Source of the DNA: Desulfobacca acetoxidans DSM 11109 | GTDB lineage: Bacteria > Desulfobacterota > Desulfobaccia > Desulfobaccales > Desulfobaccaceae | DNA: 64,000 bases | Reading direction: 5' to 3' | Assembly (NCBI RefSeq): GCF_000195295.1 | Contig: NC_015388.1 | Location: forward strand, 2,728,001-2,792,000 | Translations under genes and position numbers: made by a program | The notes under the pieces: model-generated | Databases searched by the model: none | Told to the model about the DNA's origin: nothing | Seen by the model: the letters and a program-made list of their open reading frames with translations, nothing else | Shown here: positions 1,263 through 42,870 of the stretch, in pieces | How positions within the stretch are numbered: position 1 is the stretch's first letter | How the letters are laid out: each line of letters starts with the position of its first letter

Positions 1263-2783
1263 ATGGAAATCAGAGCAGAAGAAATCAGTCAGATTATTCG
1301 GACCCAGATCAAGGACTATGAGAAAAAGGTCGAGGTGGCTGAGACCGGCACCGTTCTTTCCGTCGGCGACGGTATCGCCCGCGTTTCCGGCGTGGAAAAG
1401 TGTATGGCTATGGAGCTGTTGGAATTCCCCGGCGGCATCTTTGGCATCGCCTTGAACCTGGAAGAAGACAACGTCGGCTGCGCCATCCTGGGTGAAGATA
1501 TTCATATCAAGGAAGGCGACATGGTCAAAAGGACCGGCCGTATCGCTGAGGTGCCCGTCGGCGAGGCCTGTTTGGGTCGGGTACTTGACCCGGTGGGCAA
1601 TCCCATCGACGGCAAAGGCCCCGTGGAGGCCAAGGAATACCGCCGCATCGAACTGAAGGCCCCTGGCGTTATCGAGCGTCAGCCGGTGAATGAACCCATG
1701 TATACCGGTTATAAGGCCATCGATGCCATGACCCCGGTCGGGCGCGGTCAGCGGGAGCTGATCATCGGTGACCGTCAGATCGGCAAGACGGCTTTGTGCG
1801 TTGACGCCATCATCAATCAGAAAGATTCCGGCGTCGTCTGTATCTATGTCGCCATCGGTCAGAAAAAATCCACCGTAGCCCAGGTGGTGGATGCCTTGGA
1901 GCGTAACGATGCTATGAAGCACACCATCGTTATCTCCGCTACCGCCAGTGAACCGGCGCCGTTGCAGTACGTATCTGCCTTTGCCGGCTGCACCATGGGC
2001 GAATATTACCGGGATTCCGGTCGTCACGCCCTGATCATCTACGATGACCTGTCCAAACAGGCTACTGCGTATCGCCAGATCTCCCTGCTGCTCCGCCGTC
2101 CTCCCGGACGTGAAGCCTTCCCCGGCGACATTTTCTATAATCACTCCCGTCTGCTTGAACGGGCCGCCAAACTCAATATAGAGAAAGGCGGGGGGTCTCT
2201 GACGGCTTTGCCCATCATTGAAACCCAACAGGGCGACGTTTCGGCTTATATCCCCACCAACGTTATTTCCATCACCGACGGCCAGGTTTACTTGGAACCG
2301 GCACTCTTCTTTGCTGGCGTGCGCCCTGCCATTAACGTCGGTCTGTCGGTTTCCCGGGTCGGCGGCGCCGCTCAGGTAAAGGCCATGAAGCAGGTTGCCG
2401 GTTCGCTCCGATTGGATCTGGCCCAATACCGTGAATTAGCCGCCTTTGCCCAGTTTGGCTCTGAATTGGACAAAGCTACTCAATCCCAGCTCAACCGGGG
2501 TATCCGCCTGGTGGAAATCCTTAAACAACCCCAGTATGACCCGCTACCGATGGAGAAAGAGATTACTATTCTGTATGCCGGTACCCGGGGGATATTGGAC
2601 GATCTGCCGGTGGAAGTTCTGGGAGCCTTTGAGAAACAGCTCTATGAGTACATCGGCGGCAAGCACCCGGAGATTTTTAATACGCTGAAAGAAGCTAAGG
2701 AAATCAATGCCGACCTGGACAACCAGATGAAAGCCGCCCTGGAGGCTTTTAAGGCCGATTTCAAAGCCAGCCTGGCCGCCTGA
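1263..2783 (+). CDS. atpA: ATP synthase alpha subunit
   Basis: Regulatory, non-catalytic nucleotide-binding subunit of F1 (506 aa, normal length). The N-terminal [21 protein letters not shown] region is followed by the beta-barrel, then the Walker A motif GDRQIGKT at residues 169-176 and the ATP synthase alpha/beta signature near [17 protein letters not shown]. The last third is the helical C-terminal domain. It starts one base after the atpH stop, so it belongs to the same transcript. A long antisense reading frame over this gene is a codon-use shadow. Confidence 0.98.
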
Positions 2784-2824
2784 TGACCGGCGCACACCGG
2801 AAATCAAGGAGGGTAATCTAATCC

Positions 2825-5135
<2,311 letters not shown>

Positions 5136-9944: not shown

Positions 9945-10275
9945 TTATATGAAAACAGGTTAGAGGTAAGGGGTAAGAGGCAAGGACAATCCGCTAAAAA
10001 TCAACTGTTTTTATGCTTCGTTGTGATTTTTAAACATGCCGATTTATATGAAAACAGTGCTCTTAAAGACGGCGGGCGCGGCCCGCCCTATGCGTAGATT
10101 GCCAATAAATCATCGATAATGGGATAGCCGCTTATGTTTAATATGGTCGATGAGAAAAAATTTTATATAAAAACAGTGAGCGGTGAGCAGAAAAAGCATT
10201 CTTGTGAGCAGCTGCCACAGTTCTGTTTTCATGCTTCGTTGTGATCAGCAGAACATGACAATTTGTATGGCAAAT
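9945..10275. repeat. Cluster of AAAACAG-arm palindromic elements
   Basis: The gap between the NRPS and PPTase genes is largely a nest of arms of the kind TATATGAAAACAG and CTGTTTTTATGCTTCGTTGTG enclosing variable cores. The first core (9958-10003) is purine-rich (gaggtaagg repeats), a second contains a REP unit (10067-10090), and a third has GTGAGCGGTGAGCAGAAAAAGC. The same arms occur at 16910-17180 and 42729-42870. No gene is seen here. Confidence 0.7.
10067..10090. repeat. Single REP-like unit
   Basis: ACGGCGGGCGCGGCCCGCCC followed by TAT is the same GC-rich palindrome seen at 26126-26147 and, as a variant, in the array beside the RAYT gene at 33179-33951. Confidence 0.65.
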
Positions 10276-16860: not shown

Positions 16861-16909
16861 CCGGTTCGGAATCGCCTGCTTTACCGTAACGCCGTTGATA
16901 TTCATATAA

Positions 16910-17180
16910 GTTCACATGTTCTCAAGAACACAACGAAGCATGAAAACAGAGGCGTAGAGGCGTAAAGGCGTAGTGGCGTAGTGGGCATTGCCCACCCTAC
17001 AAATACATTCTGTTTTTATATAAGTTTTCTTGTTCCAAGGAACACAACGAAGCATAAAAACAGAATCGTGGCGGCTGCTCACAATAATGTTTTTGCTGCT
17101 CACGGCTCACGGCTCACGGCTCACGGCTCACTGTTTTTATACAAGTGCTCATGTTCTGCCGAACACAACGAAGCAGAGGT
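16910..17180. repeat. Repeat-rich gap: AAAACAG arms around two tandem-repeat cores
   Basis: No gene is seen between the first YkuD gene and 17261. Three arms (around 16914-16949, 17010-17061 and 17130-17176) carry ATGTTCTCAAGAACACAACG or a close variant, next to AAAACAG or CTGTTTT. The core at 16950-16983 is four imperfect 8-bp units of the type AGGCGTAG; the core at 17099-17131 is four and a half 7-bp units GCTCACG. The arms match those at 9945-10275 and 42729-42870. Confidence 0.8.
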
Positions 17181-26097: not shown

Positions 26098-26101
<4 letters not shown>

Positions 26102-26147
26102 GGCGTGCCGTGCACGCCAACAAACGGCGGGCGCGGCCCGCCCTATA
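26098..26147. repeat. REP pair overlapping the hslU stop codon
   Basis: TAGGGCGTGCCGTGCACGCC, an AACAAA spacer and CGGCGGGCGCGGCCCGCCCT form two GC-rich palindromes. Read on the minus strand this is the same unit as the copies at 33179-33951 and 34502-34553, next to the RAYT gene. Confidence 0.85.
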
Positions 26148-30656: not shown

Positions 30657-31481
30657 ATGAATGATGAAAGAAAAAGATTACCAAAAATGAATTTATATAA
30701 TAATGATATTTCTGACCCCAAGGCAAAAGCATTTTTTGAAGAAGCTTTCAAATTATGTAAAAATTCTAAGGAAAGCGATGTAAAAAAATTCATTGAGAAT
30801 AATAGACTTGCATCAAGTCCTGAAGAACATGTCAAGGCTGGCTTCTATTCTCTTGCTGTTGCAAAATTTAATAAAGAAATAGATAAAGAAGAGTCAGGAA
30901 AGTATTTCCATTATGCAGGCCATATATTAAAAATCACAAATTATATTAATCAAGCTGCAAGAGCATACGCTAATGCAGGTTCTGTATTAAAAGATTGTCA
31001 AGATAGCAAAAACATAGAACTTGCCGTAAGATCTTTTGCTCAATCAAAAAATTGTTATTTTGACATCGGAAATTCTGAATTGTCAGAGAAGATGTATATT
31101 GAAGAACAAGAAACTAAAATAAAATTACTTACATCAAAAAAAGTTTCTTGTTTTTCCTTAAAAATATGGAAATTATCAAGCATTTTTGGAACTAGTTTTC
31201 AAAGATGGTATTGTATTGTGTTGCTTTTTATATTGTTATTTTCTTTTCTTTATGAATATCTTTATCGATATAAATATATTATAATCAATGGACAAAGCAA
31301 ATGGCATAACATTATATCACCTGTTTATTTTTCAATTGTGACAATATCCACATTAGGTTATGGTGATATTTTTCCAATAAGATGGGAAGCGCAATTAGTA
31401 ATCATTTTTAATATTTTTATAGGTTATTTATTACTTGGACTTGGAATAGGTATTATAACAAGAAAGATAAAAGGACATTGA
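30657..31481 (+). CDS. Two-TM potassium channel with N-terminal helical-repeat domain
   Basis: A 274-aa membrane protein. Residues 1-165 are soluble and helical, with a TPR- or SNAP-like look ([47 protein letters not shown]). TM1 is about 182-202; the pore helix and selectivity filter are [12 protein letters not shown], with GYGD at 234-237; TM2 is about 246-266 ([21 protein letters not shown]). The filter is that of potassium channels. The gene is far richer in A and T than all neighbours (many AAA, AAT and ATA codons), so it was acquired. No regulatory RCK domain is present; the N-terminal domain may sense something instead. Confidence 0.85.
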
Positions 31482-31498
31482 TTCTGGAGAAGGTCACT

Positions 31499-32701
31499 AT
31501 GAATGAACTAAATAAAATCGTCCTGGCCTACTCCGGCGGCCTCGATACCTCGGTCATCCTCAAGTGGCTCATGGAGACCTACCAATGCCCGGTGGTGGCC
31601 TATGCCGCCGATTTGGGGCAGGGGGATGAGTTGTCCGAGGTGGCGGTGAAGGCCAAGGCCACCGGCGCCGCGGAAGTACATATCCTGGATTTGAAGGAAG
31701 AGTTTGCCCGAGATTTCATCTTTCCCATGTTCCGGGCCAATGCCCTCTATGAAGGAGCCTATCTGCTGGGCACCTCCATCGCCCGGCCCCTCATTGCCAA
31801 GGCCCAGGTGGAGGTGGCCAAAAAGACCGGGGCCGACGCGGTGAGCCATGGGGCCACCGGCAAGGGCAACGACCAGGTGCGTTTTGAACTGACCTACATG
31901 GCCCTGGCCCCGGAGCTGAAGATCATCGCCCCCTGGCGGGAATGGGGTCTGCAGGGCCGGGCCGACTGCGTCGCCTACGCCGAAAAGCACGGCATTCCGG
32001 TGCCGGTGACTCAAGAGAAGCCCTATTCCAGCGACCGCAATTTATTGCACATTAGCTTTGAGGGGGGCATTTTGGAAGACCCCTGGGCCGAACCCCCGGC
32101 GGATATGTTTGTGCTCACCCAATCCCCCCAGGAGGCCCCCAATACCCCCCAGTACCTCGAGATTGACTTTGCGTCCGGGGACCCGGTGGCGGTGGACGAC
32201 AAGAAAATGAGTCCGTTCCAGATCATCGACCACCTGAACAAGGTAGGCGGCGAGCACGGCATCGGCCGGGTGGACCTGGTCGAAAATCGCTATGTGGGCC
32301 TGAAATCCCGCGGCGTCTATGAGACCCCGGGCGGCACGATCCTGCGGGCGGCACACCACGCCGTGGAGTCCCTCACCCTGGACCGGGAGGTCATGCATCT
32401 GCGGGACAGCCTCATCCCCCGCTACGCCGAACTGGTCTATTACGGCTATTGGTTTGCGCCGGAGCGCACCGCCCTCCAAGCCCTCATTGACGAGGCCCAG
32501 AAACCGGTGACGGGCACGGCCCGCTTGCAATTATACAAGGGAAATGTTACCGTAGTGGGCCGCAAGGCTCCGAAGTCACTCTACCGCCCCGATCTCGTGA
32601 CCTTCGAGGCCGGAGGCGACTACCAGCAGGCCGACGCTACCGGCTTCATCCGCCTCAATGCCCTGCGCCTGAAGATCCGGGCCAAGTTGGGAGAGCGTTA
32701 A
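31499..32701 (+). CDS. argG: Argininosuccinate synthase
   Basis: Joins citrulline and aspartate (400 aa). The PP-loop ATP-binding motif AYSGGLDTS is at residues 10-18; other marks are [53 protein letters not shown] and [22 protein letters not shown]. The frame opens upstream (31478), but GGAGAAGG 7 bases before ATG 31499 fixes the start. It resumes normal GC content directly after the AT-rich channel gene, whose stop is 17 bases upstream, so both may now share a transcript. Confidence 0.97.
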
Positions 32702-32736: not shown

Positions 32737-33168
32737 ATGATTCCTCCCCTGCCGCTCTTTATCGTGGGAGCCGTGTTGTGCGGCCTGAGTATTTTGATGT
32801 TGTGCTGGCATCCGGGGCCCAACGCCTGGATCGGGGTGCGGTTGCCGTGGACCTATGCCGACCGGGAGCTGTGGGATACATCCTGGCGTTTGGGAATCGT
32901 ATTGGTCCTGGGTATGGGGTTGGGGGCATTCATCTCGTGGCAGGTTTTCATCGCGGCCACGGTGGTGTTACTGGGGGTGAGCTTGGGCTGCCCCATGGTG
33001 ATATACTACCGCAAATACGGCACCTTGCGTTTCTGGAAAGACCAGGGCTGGATTGCCTATCATCCGGTGGTGCGCTGTCGGCATTGCGGGCATTACCAGA
33101 AACTGCCCGACGATGCGGCCCTCTCCACGGCTCAATGCGAGGCGTGCGGTCGGCCGTACCGGATTTGA
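32737..33168 (+). CDS. SdpI-like membrane protein with C-terminal zinc ribbon
   Basis: A 143-aa protein. Hydrophobic helices at about 5-25, 52-72 and 72-90 and the segment GPNAWIGVRLPWTYADRELWDTSWRLG match the conserved piece of SdpI/YhfL-type membrane proteins (an immunity family). The C-terminal 30 residues hold a CRHCGHY ... CEACGRPYRI zinc ribbon, not a usual part of that family. It sits between argG and a REP array. Function unknown. Confidence 0.65.
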   Translation: MIPPLPLFIVGAVLCGLSILMLCWHPGPNAWIGVRLPWTYADRELWDTSWRLGIVLVLGMGLGAFISWQVFIAATVVLLGVSLGCPMVIYYRKYGTLRFWKDQGWIAYHPVVRCRHCGHYQKLPDDAALSTAQCEACGRPYRI

Positions 33169-33178
33169 AATGACAGTC

Positions 33179-33951
33179 ATAGGACGGCCCGCGGCCGCCG
33201 AAAAAAAATTGGCGTGCACGGCACGCCCTATGAAAAGCTTCTTACTTACTTGACTACGCCCCGATGCGAGGCGTCCAGTTTGCCGTGCCAGAATCGAAAT
33301 AATAGGTCGGAAAGGGACTATAGGCTCTTTGTCACTTCCAGAATAAAACAAATTACACCATAGGGCGGCCCGCGGCCGCCGCTTAAAAAACGGCGTGCTC
33401 GGCTCGCCCTATGAAAAGCTTCTTACTTACTTGACTACGCCCCGATGCGAGGCGTCCAGTTTGCCGTGCCAGAATCGAAATAATAGGTCGGAAAGGGACT
33501 ATAGGCTCTTTGTCACTTCCAGAATAAAACAAATTACACCATAGGGCGGCCCGCGGCCGCCGCTTAAAAACGGCGTGCTCGGCTCGCCCTATGAAAAGCT
33601 TCTTACTTACTTGACTACGCCCCGATGCGAGGCGTCCAGTTTGCCGTGCCAGAATCGAAATAATAGGTCGGAAAGGGACTATAGGCTCTTTGTCACTTCC
33701 AGAATAAAACAAAATATACCATAGGGCGGCCCGCGGCCGCCGCTTAAAAACGGCGTGCTCGGCTCGCCCTATGAAAAGCTTCTTACCTACTTGACTACGC
33801 CCCGATGCGAGGCGTCCAGTTTGCCGTGCCAGAATCGAAATAATAGGTCGGAAAGGGACTATAGGCTCTTTGTCACTTCCAGAATAAAACAAAATATACC
33901 ATAGGGCGGCCCGCGGCCGCCGCTTAAAAAACGGCGTGCACGGCACGCCCT
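33179..33951. repeat. REP array: five REP pairs in 180-bp tandem units
   Basis: REP pairs start at 33179, 33360, 33541, 33721 and 33901, spaced 181, 181, 180 and 180 bases. Each has a GGGCGGCCCGCGGCCGCC-type palindrome, a short A-rich spacer and a GGCGTGCTCGGCTCGCC or GGCGTGCACGGCACGCC palindrome, then CCTATGAAAAGCTTCTT. The 120-bp spacers between pairs are nearly identical. The first pair is a variant (AGGACGG, eight As, ATTGG) that recurs at 34502 beyond the RAYT gene. 180 is a multiple of 3, so a long minus-strand reading frame of 60-aa repeats arises by chance. Confidence 0.93.
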
Positions 33952-33987
33952 ATGAAAAGCTTCTTATCTAAGAGCACTCATAGCAAA

Positions 33988-34494
33988 ATGCCAAATTATC
34001 GCAGATTCTATTCTGGTACCCTTTGGTTCTTTACAGTTGTTACCTATAAAAGAAGGCCAATTCTCATAACCGATAACACAATTCATCTTCTTAGAATTGC
34101 GATGCACGAATGCCAAAACCAATATCCTTTTTCCATTGAGGCCTTGGTTGTATTGCCCGATCATTTACATTGTATATGGCGATTGGATCATTCGGATACA
34201 AATTATTCTCGCCAATGGAGCATAATCAAACGCCGATTTACTCAGGGTTTCAGAGATGGCAAGAAAAGAAATCCTCCTTTTTGGCAAAGCCGGTTTTGGG
34301 CCCATGTAATTAATGACGAACAGGATTTTGAAAACCATATGAATTATATCCATTATAATCCGGTAAAGCACGGGTATGTTGAAACCCCCCGAGATTGGCA
34401 ATGGACCAGCCTACATCGATTGATAGAGGAAGGATTATACCCACCGAATTGGGGGGAATCAATACATATCCCCGATCATGTCGGCCGTGAATGA
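33988..34494 (+). CDS. REP-associated tyrosine transposase (RAYT, TnpA_REP)
   Basis: A 168-aa Y1/HUH single-strand nuclease: YFSG-type start (MPNYRRFYSGTLWFFTVVTYKRRPIL), HUH motif PDHLHCIW with H59 and H61, and YIHYNPVKHGYV with the likely catalytic Tyr at 120. Such enzymes bind and cut REP hairpins. The reading frame opens at 33952 within the last REP unit; ATG 33988 (MPNYRR) is the family start. REP pairs flank it on both sides, as for known RAYT genes, and the catalytic residues are intact, so it may be active. Confidence 0.92.
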   Translation: MPNYRRFYSGTLWFFTVVTYKRRPILITDNTIHLLRIAMHECQNQYPFSIEALVVLPDHLHCIWRLDHSDTNYSRQWSIIKRRFTQGFRDGKKRNPPFWQSRFWAHVINDEQDFENHMNYIHYNPVKHGYVETPRDWQWTSLHRLIEEGLYPPNWGESIHIPDHVGRE

Positions 34495-34501
34495 TCAAGT
34501 C

Positions 34502-34553
34502 ATAGGACGGCCCGCGGTCGCCGAAAAAAAATTGGCGTGCACGGCACGCCCTA
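34502..34553. repeat. REP pair downstream of the RAYT gene
   Basis: AGGACGGCCCGCGGTCGCCG, eight As and TTGGCGTGCACGGCACGCCC match the first, variant pair of the array (33179-33231) almost base for base, including the preceding GTCAT. The RAYT gene and the array are thus bounded by the same variant. It ends 25 bases before argH. Confidence 0.9.
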
Positions 34554-34577
34554 TAATAAGAGTTTTTACGGAAAACC

Positions 34578-35975
34578 ATGCACAGCAACAACAAAGAAAA
34601 ACCCTGGGGCGGGCGATTCGGCGGTGGCACCGCCAAGCTGGTGGAGGAATTCACCTGTTCCCTGCACTTTGATCGGCGCCTGTATCGCTATGATATCGCC
34701 GGGTCCATGGCCCATGCCCGCATGTTGGCCCGGCAGGGGATTCTGACCGCCGCGGAGGCTGAGGCCATCGTAAACGGGCTCCAGACGGTGCAGGGTGAGA
34801 TCGACGCCGGGACGTTCCTTTTCGACCCTGGCGATGAAGACATCCACATGGCCGTAGAGCGGCGCCTGACGGCGATTATCGGGGAGGCCGGCCGCAAACT
34901 GCATACCGCCCGGAGCCGCAACGATCAGATAGCCTTGGATATCCGGCTGTTTCTACGGGATCAGGTCGGCGTCCTGATAGAGGCCCTGCAGGACCTGCGG
35001 CGGGCCGGGGTGCGGCTGGCCCGGCGTTATTTCAGCGTCATCCTGCCGGGCTATACTCACCTGCAGCGGGCCCAGCCGGTGCTCTTCAGCCACCACCTGT
35101 TGGCCTATGATGAGATGTGGCGGCGTGATCAGGGGCGGCTGCGGGACTGTCTGGTACGGTTCAATGTCTGCCCGCTCGGGGCGGCGGCGCTGGCCGGTTC
35201 CACCTTCCCGATCGACCCGCCCTATACCGCAGAACTGCTGGATTTCCCGGCCATCTTAAACAACAGTCTGGATGCCGTCAGCGACCGGGATTTTATCGTG
35301 GAGTTCGCCGCCGCCGCCAGTCTGATTATGGTGCATCTGAGCCGCCTGGCGGAGGAATTGATCCTGTGGTCCTCGGCGGAATTCGCCTTTATTGAAATTG
35401 CCGATGCCTTCTGCACCGGCTCATCTATCATGCCTCAAAAGAAGAACCCGGATGTGGCGGAGTTGATCCGAGGTAAAAGCGGTCGGGTTATCGGCCATCT
35501 CACCGGCCTCCTGGTAACCTTGAAAGGCCTGCCTCTGGCGTATAACCGGGACCTGCAGGAAGACAAAGAACCACTTTTTGACACCGTGGATACGGTATTG
35601 CCGTGCGTCCGCCTCATGGCCGGGGTGCTTGACAATCTCGCTTTAAAAAAGGAAAAAATCGCCGCCGCCTTGCAGGGGGGATTCCTGACGGCTACTGATA
35701 TGGCGGACTATCTGGTCACCCAGGGCGTGCCGTTCCGCACCGCCCACGCGCAGGTAGGACAGACGGTGCGCTTCGCCGAGACCCAGGGCAAAGAGCTGGC
35801 AGATTTGACTCTGGAGGAAATCAAGCAGTTCGCACCATTGGCAGAAGCCGACCTTTTTGGGTGGCTGCAGATTGAGCAGTCCGTCAACCGGCGGTGCTCC
35901 CCCGGTGGTACTGCCGCCGGGCGGGTGGCGGAGGCCTTGGCCGCGGTGGAGCAGGAATTGGGACTGACTTCCTGA
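34578..35975 (+). CDS. argH: Argininosuccinate lyase
   Basis: Last step of arginine synthesis (465 aa): splits argininosuccinate into arginine and fumarate. MHSNNKEKPWGGRFGGGTAKLVEEF is the family N-terminus; HTARSRNDQIALDIRLFLRD, PGYTHLQRAQPVLFSHHL and the signature GSSIMPQKKNPDVAEL (from residue 281) are intact. No clear ribosome-binding site is visible because a REP pair lies just upstream. Confidence 0.97.
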   Translation: MHSNNKEKPWGGRFGGGTAKLVEEFTCSLHFDRRLYRYDIAGSMAHARMLARQGILTAAEAEAIVNGLQTVQGEIDAGTFLFDPGDEDIHMAVERRLTAIIGEAGRKLHTARSRNDQIALDIRLFLRDQVGVLIEALQDLRRAGVRLARRYFSVILPGYTHLQRAQPVLFSHHLLAYDEMWRRDQGRLRDCLVRFNVCPLGAAALAGSTFPIDPPYTAELLDFPAILNNSLDAVSDRDFIVEFAAAASLIMVHLSRLAEELILWSSAEFAFIEIADAFCTGSSIMPQKKNPDVAELIRGKSGRVIGHLTGLLVTLKGLPLAYNRDLQEDKEPLFDTVDTVLPCVRLMAGVLDNLALKKEKIAAALQGGFLTATDMADYLVTQGVPFRTAHAQVGQTVRFAETQGKELADLTLEEIKQFAPLAEADLFGWLQIEQSVNRRCSPGGTAAGRVAEALAAVEQELGLTS

Positions 35976-42728: not shown

Positions 42729-42870
42729 TATATGAAAACAGTGAGCAGTAGGCGGTGAGCGGTGAGCAGAAAAAGCATTATTGTGAGCAGCTACCACGGT
42801 GCTGTTTTCGTATTTCGTTGTGACCACTAGAACATGACAATTTATATTTTGTTGTGTTCTCGAGAACATG
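42729..42870. repeat. AAAACAG-arm palindromic element upstream of dapL
   Basis: Arms TATATGAAAACAG and CTGTTTTCGTATTTCGTTGTG enclose the core GTGAGCAGTAGGCGGTGAGC and AGAAAAAGCATTATTGTGAGC, almost the same core as at 10180-10230. The outer end carries TGTTCTCGAGAACATGAGG, a perfect palindrome whose last bases lie at the dapL 5' end. Confidence 0.8.

Follow-up and report, generated by a model that had tools for sequence, protein, structure and literature searches.

The GTAG REPs are palindromes that carry a four-letter tag at one end and often lie beside genes for REP-associated tyrosine transposases (RAYTs), according to the accessible part of their description (Di Nocera 2013, PMC3733652), in whose main text ATAG was not found as the start of a word. 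The RAYT of Escherichia coli, TnpAREP (PDB 4er8), is encoded in REPtron Ec between inverted REPs and possesses an HUH motif and a tyrosine (PMC8266576, PMC6006769). Within the available text of PMC6006769, residues Q95, E100, H101 and R104 are discussed in the interaction with the GTAG head and the role of W94 is called unclear; the text available for both papers names the head-contact residues without assigning a residue to a base. The E. coli enzyme is stated to tolerate no change of GTAG, whereas other RAYTs are laxer (PMC8266576, accessible text). In Pseudomonas fluorescens SBW25, the available portion of the study by Bertels and Rainey (2011, PMC3116915) reports a REPIN spacing peak at 184 bp, a largest cluster of four REPINs over 700 bp, and a REPIN cluster adjoining each of three RAYTs.

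The locus of Desulfobacca acetoxidans DSM 11109 described here is related to each of these systems. As in the published part of the SBW25 work that could be compared, near-identical REPINs are repeated together with their flanks, but the head is ATAG, the repeated unit contains a decayed gene end, and the REPIN is undispersed in its own genome. The likeness to E. coli TnpAREP, as far as the available papers describe it, comprises homology over residues 1-158, inverted REPs and an HUH motif with a tyrosine, whereas Ala and Asn replace E100 and R104 here and ATAG takes the place of GTAG as the head; the better-preserved stems pair perfectly around a loop of 3 nt, while the E. coli REPs need a bulge. 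With the GTAG REPs of PMC3733652 the locus shares the palindrome, the tag at one end and the proximity to a RAYT, but not the tag itself, which is ATAG. The tandem array adds one more case to an arrangement already described, since tandem REPIN clusters beside RAYTs have been published for P. fluorescens; the new part is the ATAG head together with the matching RAYT residues. A literature search for RAYTs with ATAG or from Desulfobacca returned nothing relevant among the papers listed, most subscription journals lying outside its reach.

Organisation of the argG-argH locus

The window is a stretch of 64,000 nucleotides (positions 2,728,001 to 2,792,000 of NC_015388.1) from a genome that consists of a single contig of 3,282,536 bases. 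The genes of the locus are all on the plus strand, in the order argG (31478-32701), a small SdpI-like gene (32737-33168; Pfam SdpI 21.7 bits, under the cut-off of 28.2), five REPINs, the RAYT gene (33988-34494, 168 aa), a sixth REPIN and argH (34578-35975). The original prediction of five REP pairs in roughly 180-bp tandem before an intact RAYT gene, with a sixth pair behind it, all inside the arginine cluster, is thus confirmed: the spacing is 180-181 bp, the protein matches the curated model NF047646 at 171.9 bits, and argG lies on one side and argH on the other. At gathering scores, Rfam gave no match in the window. A protein with an ion-channel domain (Pfam Ion_trans_2) is encoded at 30657-31481, immediately 5' of argG.

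Each REPIN unit is made of two inverted REPs, and the heads at the RAYT locus point outward and read ATAG in all six. REPIN 1 (33178-33232, variant A) runs from a CATAG-hairpin through an A-rich linker to a hairpin-CTATG. It is followed by spacer 1 (33233-33358, 126 bp), REPIN 2 (33359-33413, variant B, with a T-T mismatch in the right hairpin), spacer 2 (33414-33539, the same sequence as spacer 1), REPIN 3 (33540-33593, variant B, with a linker one A shorter), spacer 3 (33594-33719), REPIN 4 (33720-33773, exactly REPIN 3) and spacer 4 (33774-33899). REPIN 5 (33900-33954), which abuts the RAYT upstream, has a left half like that of REPINs 2-4 and a right hairpin like that of REPINs 1 and 6. 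REPIN 6 (34501-34555, variant A) comes immediately after the RAYT stop, so that the RAYT gene is bounded by two inverted REPs.

The RAYT block looks like an addition to this site. In three of the seven genomes searched for argH (G003, of the same genus, and G004 and G005, of the same family), argG and argH are direct neighbours with a short gap. The remaining four show no empty site: G001 meets a contig end, G002 has no close argH, and G006 and G016 have other genes upstream. Relatives of the SdpI-like gene are present in 15 of 40 genomes, own included. Located by short motifs, they lie close to argG, to argH or to both at 10 of 12 loci inspected among order members, so that, on gene context, the SdpI-like gene looks old here. 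Elsewhere in the order, RAYTs of this kind occupy different loci, mostly with a single inverted TAG-hairpin per side. At loci from several genera (L048, L049, L050, L053 and L056), one and the same gene seems to precede the RAYT, and by eye we take it to be murG-like; in one case there is a gene behind that we likewise presume to be murC-like.

The RAYT and its head-contact residues

The 171.9 bits against NF047646 compare with a cut-off of 80, and the match to PDB 4er8 has E=4.9e-38. The alignment to 4er8 covers residues 1-158; the C-terminal tail with two further E. coli head contacts lies outside it. The HUH histidines H59 and H61 and a single tyrosine, Y120, are invariant across a 12-row alignment, Y120 being the presumed catalytic tyrosine. 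The open reading frame extends over 33952-34494, and a start at its first ATG (33952) was rejected, as it lies inside REPIN 5 and relatives begin MPxY; the start at 33988, which gives MPNYRR, is preferred for the latter reason. Comparison with the RAYT of G016 gave 47, 32 and 104 differences at codon positions 1, 2 and 3, a constrained coding pattern, although saturation left the NG86 calculation without a dS value. By these signs the gene appears intact, with constrained coding.

Ala105 of this protein (codon 34300-34302) aligns to E100 of E. coli TnpAREP, and Asn109 (codon 34312-34314) to R104, so that neither of the conserved head-contact residues E100 and R104 is present. The pair is a trait of many RAYTs and not a definition, D at position 100 and other letters at 104 being on record or seen here. 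A second RAYT of the genome that scores above the cut-off (1929103) was considered as the cognate enzyme and rejected, because the hairpins on either side of it are, by eye, of GTAG type and unrelated in sequence.

Covariation of the head with the acidic residue

RAYTs were gathered from the class and the phylum to which the window belongs, from 80 named contigs and from extra copies in 50 of those genomes, giving 161 distinct proteins after identical cores were merged; 117 had a callable flanking REP pair and 44 were dropped. Because one of the two peptide patterns that found the 80 named loci spans both key positions (allowing E/A and R/N), some of the sampling is biased with respect to the residues, though it is neutral for the heads; L167 and L183 misfit that pattern and must derive from the other one. 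As extra copies, 30 loci and 53 stretches were taken, the rest, mostly resembling by appearance loci already in the set, being left. TTAG rows of the head calling were treated as miscalls, and the L075 row in one alignment is a second, partial copy at that locus.

All five RAYTs with a non-acidic residue at the E100 position have ATAG at both heads: those of the window, G016, L167 (Methylobacter marinus), L183 (Methylobacter sp.) and L354 (G407). Among the 112 with an acidic residue (Glu/Asp), 110 have GTAG at both heads, one has ATAG at both (L055) and one is mixed, GTAG/ATAG (L350). The contrast of 5/1 against 0/110 gives a Fisher p of 3.7e-8, with the mixed row left out and relatedness ignored. 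Changes of R104 only (to H, K, L, Q, T or W; nine rows with a pair) retain GTAG, so that the acidic position is the better match to the head. When the 176 columns were ranked with no preselection, by residues unseen with GTAG and by mutual information, the E100 column came first and the R104 column second; fourth by mutual information was a column near the N-terminus, with Trp in five of six ATAG rows and 3 of 110 GTAG rows.

Two exceptions count against the recoded pair: L055 (G005) has ATAG heads with Glu/Arg and several extra REPs alongside, and L350 has its mixed heads with Glu/Arg. The head can therefore change without a residue change, and L055 indicates that the head change may come first or that other contacts may compensate. 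A stop codon close to the end of the L167 RAYT and an insertion by the HUH motif in that of L354 suggest that both may be decaying.

A tree was computed from 55 of the 117 rows, namely the six ATAG rows and the 49 nearest GTAG rows, with the two key columns blanked. The window, G016 and G328 form a clade supported at 100/99, and L167, L183, L354 and L275 (G406) a methanotroph clade at 98/98. The G016 RAYT (66% identity) shares the ATAG heads and the non-acidic residue with the window RAYT, as do L167, L183 and L354, whose hairpins, in contrast, belong to another class than those of the window. Glu/Arg and GTAG heads occur in G328 (55% identity) and L275, and the hairpins of each belong to the class found in its clade neighbours, which for G328 means the class of the window and G016. 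The fork that sets the window and G016 apart from G328 is supported at 90/28, and L275, with GTAG, is nested inside the methanotroph clade. The starred branches require the residue label to have changed at least twice, in counts that do not separate gain from loss, and they provide three independent contrasts (two concordant, one in which the head alone changes), a number that does not suffice for a sign test; the direction of change at head and residue is one that we infer.

Copies and growth of the 180-bp array

The REPIN starts of the array (33178, 33359, 33540, 33720 and 33900) are separated by 181, 181, 180 and 180 bp, and the sixth start is at 34501. TRF reports 4.4 copies of 180 bp with 97% matches and a score of 1459, which is far beyond chance. 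Over their 126 bp, spacers 1 and 2 show no difference, spacers 1 and 3 two, spacers 1 and 4 three, and spacers 3 and 4 one; the reading of near-identical units as recent duplication is borne out by these 0-3 differences. It had also been proposed that the outermost pairs are the same variant while the inner ones differ, and indeed REPINs 1 and 6 have two differences in 55 aligned positions and each is 6-10 differences from REPINs 2-5. An open reading frame of 187 aa on the minus strand across the array (33383-33946) was dismissed as a gene, since a repeat of 180 bp corresponds to exactly 60 codons, which accounts for the open frame.

The description of the array as an amplification of REPs holds for the tandem but not for the content of the unit, which includes 126 bp of non-REP DNA with a decayed gene end. 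In spacer 1, positions 33256-33305 are a 74% copy, over 50 bp, of the 3' end of the SdpI-like gene (33127-33176), spanning its last codons and stop, and the decayed copy sits inside each spacer. The local score of spacer against gene end is 48, compared with 33 for the best of 2068 other tiles of the window; none of 2000 dinucleotide shuffles reached 48, the maximum being 37. The differences of the copy fall mostly at codon positions 1 and 2, so that it is not diverging as a gene. As the gene-end copy has diverged and the spacers are near identical, there are two ages of duplication, an older one having preceded the recent one. We propose that the array probably originated in two steps: an old duplication would have copied the 3' end of the upstream gene together with a REPIN, and spacer and REPIN would then have been multiplied recently, when REPIN copies recombined unequally or replication slipped between them.

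REP-bearing tandem units were also sought with TRF at 93 RAYT loci, namely the 80 named ones and 13 from relatives (three duplicates), the REP-bearing status being assigned by script or by eye. Such units were found at L123 (4.0 copies of 50 bp), L140 (3.0 of 73 bp and 2.0 of 82 bp) and L121 (2.9 of 44 bp), where they likewise adjoin the RAYT but are shorter than that of the window and have heads of GTAG type by eye. Further REP-bearing units occur in 2.3 copies at L126 and L174, in 2.0 at L120, L182, L049, L055 and L145, and in 1.9 at L125/L048. Others thus exist, but among the REP-bearing units of the TRF-screened RAYT loci that of the window is both the longest and the one in most copies. 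At L158 (Marichromatium gracile), a 123-bp unit is repeated 7.8 times at 2619-3583, 418 bp upstream of the RAYT; it shows no REP by eye and may be an intragenic repeat.

REP populations in the genome and its relatives

The genome was searched with the pattern ATAGGGCGNNCNNNGNNCGCC at one mismatch or fewer, a pattern that favours ATAG, and 93 sites were found, 12 of them at the RAYT locus (control 0). In a count of the list, 83 heads are ATAG, 10 have another tag letter and none is GTAG; widening the pattern to permit GTAG added no site. The foot of the hairpin, where the GTAG REP family carries GTAG or GTGG, thus has ATAG in all six REPINs of this locus and GTAG at none of the 93 sites in the genome. 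Beyond the array, no full REPIN of the RAYT-locus type was found in the genome, only three partial matches of 26-35 nt. The RAYT-locus REPIN is hence not dispersed in its own genome, which points against the account of a recoded pair.

The genome-wide count that had been suggested gave a population that is largely head-to-head, unlike the pair at the RAYT locus: 24 such pairs lie elsewhere (count of the list), with starts 42-54 bp apart, embedded in a longer conserved element of which 20 copies were aligned to a consensus. The two REP sites previously assigned to the same family, at 26098 and 10067, carry hairpins that are related but belong to other elements, the former (26098-26146) being an outward-facing pair of another hairpin combination and the latter (about 10071-10092) one half of a head-to-head element whose other half is broken. 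The two ATAG hairpins of this dispersed head-to-head element face each other across about 30 bp, within roughly 130-150 bp of conserved sequence that has a TATGAAAACAGTG-like direct repeat at either end. A AACACAACGAAGCATGAAAACAG-like sequence or its complement occurs in other dispersed repeats (window 10176-10268, 16896-17175 and 42755-42847), and such repeats also adjoin the head-to-head REP element at several loci.

Close versions of the RAYT-locus REPIN matched in 18 of 40 genomes, own included, and are dispersed in some of them. The RAYT of G016 is flanked by hairpins that have both stems of the dispersed element of the window genome, which supports the view that this RAYT type has served both kinds of REP. 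G024 and G007 have both ATAG REPINs and GTAG REPs. ATAG REPINs are also present in genomes where no RAYT of the same type was found, another point against the recoded pair. G018 (L079, L095) has 22 near-identical ATAG REPIN matches in a genome that is 94% complete and has no such RAYT at E<=1e-35; these REPINs may be an orphan population, or the RAYT gene may have been missed by the assembly.

Next to the 80 named RAYTs, 78,033 bp contain 107 TAG-hairpin sites, compared with 18 in 209,750 bp of distant sequence, and the pair caller succeeded at 47 of 64 places near RAYTs and at 0 of 64 places two kilobases away. Within the order, 19 of 21 RAYT loci yielded a REP pair; as five cut loci of that run carried contig coordinates and may be off, totals were taken from the set of 161. 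Together with the model match, these pairs uphold the identification of the gene as a RAYT with flanking cognate REPs.

Discussion

We propose that the locus is a REPtron, in which a RAYT, as a domesticated transposase and a Y1 HUH single-strand nuclease, would be encoded between inverted REP hairpins. By analogy with E. coli TnpAREP, the RAYT would most likely bind the REPs as single-stranded hairpins, read the four-letter head at their foot and cleave beside it. Its peculiarity would lie in a tag and a reader that have both been recoded, the head being ATAG instead of GTAG and the RAYT being devoid of the acidic residue and the arginine tied to head contact. We give this general account, a REPtron with a recoded tag-and-reader pair and a two-step array, a probability of about three in four. 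The finer proposal is held with less assurance, although we lean towards it: the residue at the E100 position would read the guanine at position 1, Ala or Thr in that place, with loss of R104, would accompany ATAG, and separate switches would have occurred in the relatives of Desulfobacca and in methanotrophs. Residue 105 of the window RAYT may thus have a base-reading role. The ATAG head with the matching RAYT substitutions is the more unusual feature of the locus and was missing from the original prediction, whose observation is confirmed and whose interpretation is partly supported.

It could be objected that this is an ordinary RAYT with a tandem REPIN cluster, in which ATAG arose by drift, the RAYT being indifferent to the first head base or inactive and its residues coincidental. 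L055, with ATAG and Glu/Arg, fits such a view, as do the small number of independent contrasts and the SELEX of a Marinomonas RAYT, which, in the text available, strongly enriched only the last two head positions, with a CT substrate. We nevertheless regard drift as unlikely. A distribution of five in five against 1 in 112 (plus one mixed), spread over two separate clades, would be difficult to obtain in this way, and the two top columns of 176 are precisely residues named in head contact. The intolerance of the E. coli enzyme to any GTAG change, as given in the accessible text, speaks in the same direction, and the RAYT of the window is intact, with a constrained coding pattern.

The growth of the array may be explained otherwise than by recombination or slippage. 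The RAYT itself could have built it, by the rolling-circle model of Nunvar (2010), which in its accessible description yields amplified modules, or by circle integration. The outermost REPINs, being of the same variant and bracketing both array and RAYT, could be read in this sense, and REP-bearing tandem units adjoin other RAYTs too. We consider this a minority possibility, somewhat less improbable than drift of the head: the unit holds 126 bp of unique DNA, part of which is a gene fragment, and the copies differ stepwise, as repeated unequal exchange would leave them, so that repeated unequal exchange or slippage is favoured. A selected role of the array, as a regulatory leader or insulator for the expression of the RAYT or argH, seems to us distinctly unlikely. 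Its position immediately 5' of the RAYT start, between co-directional genes, would suit that role, and tandem REP units do lie beside some other RAYTs, but most RAYT loci run through TRF have no REP-bearing tandem unit and most relatives in the order have a single REP per side. Short reads are in general hard to assemble across repeats of 180 bp, and the units could accordingly have been created by the assembly. This explanation is very improbable, and the original reading of the units as real stands, because the copies are distinguishable and the single-contig genome of the type strain was published as finished with 454 paired-end and Illumina data (PMC3156406, in its accessible part). Unequal recombination or slippage between REPIN copies therefore remains our preferred route for the recent step.

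The papers cited leave open by what means a RAYT stays with its own REPs and in what way new families of REPs come about. If the recoded pair is real, a switch of this kind would found populations of REPs expected to be out of use for a GTAG-type RAYT. According to its available text, PMC6006769 demands GTAG or GTGG in its prediction of REPs, and surveys with this demand would miss ATAG populations. As a natural change of tag and reader, with unchanged relatives as controls, the system would make the recognition rule testable by short oligonucleotides.
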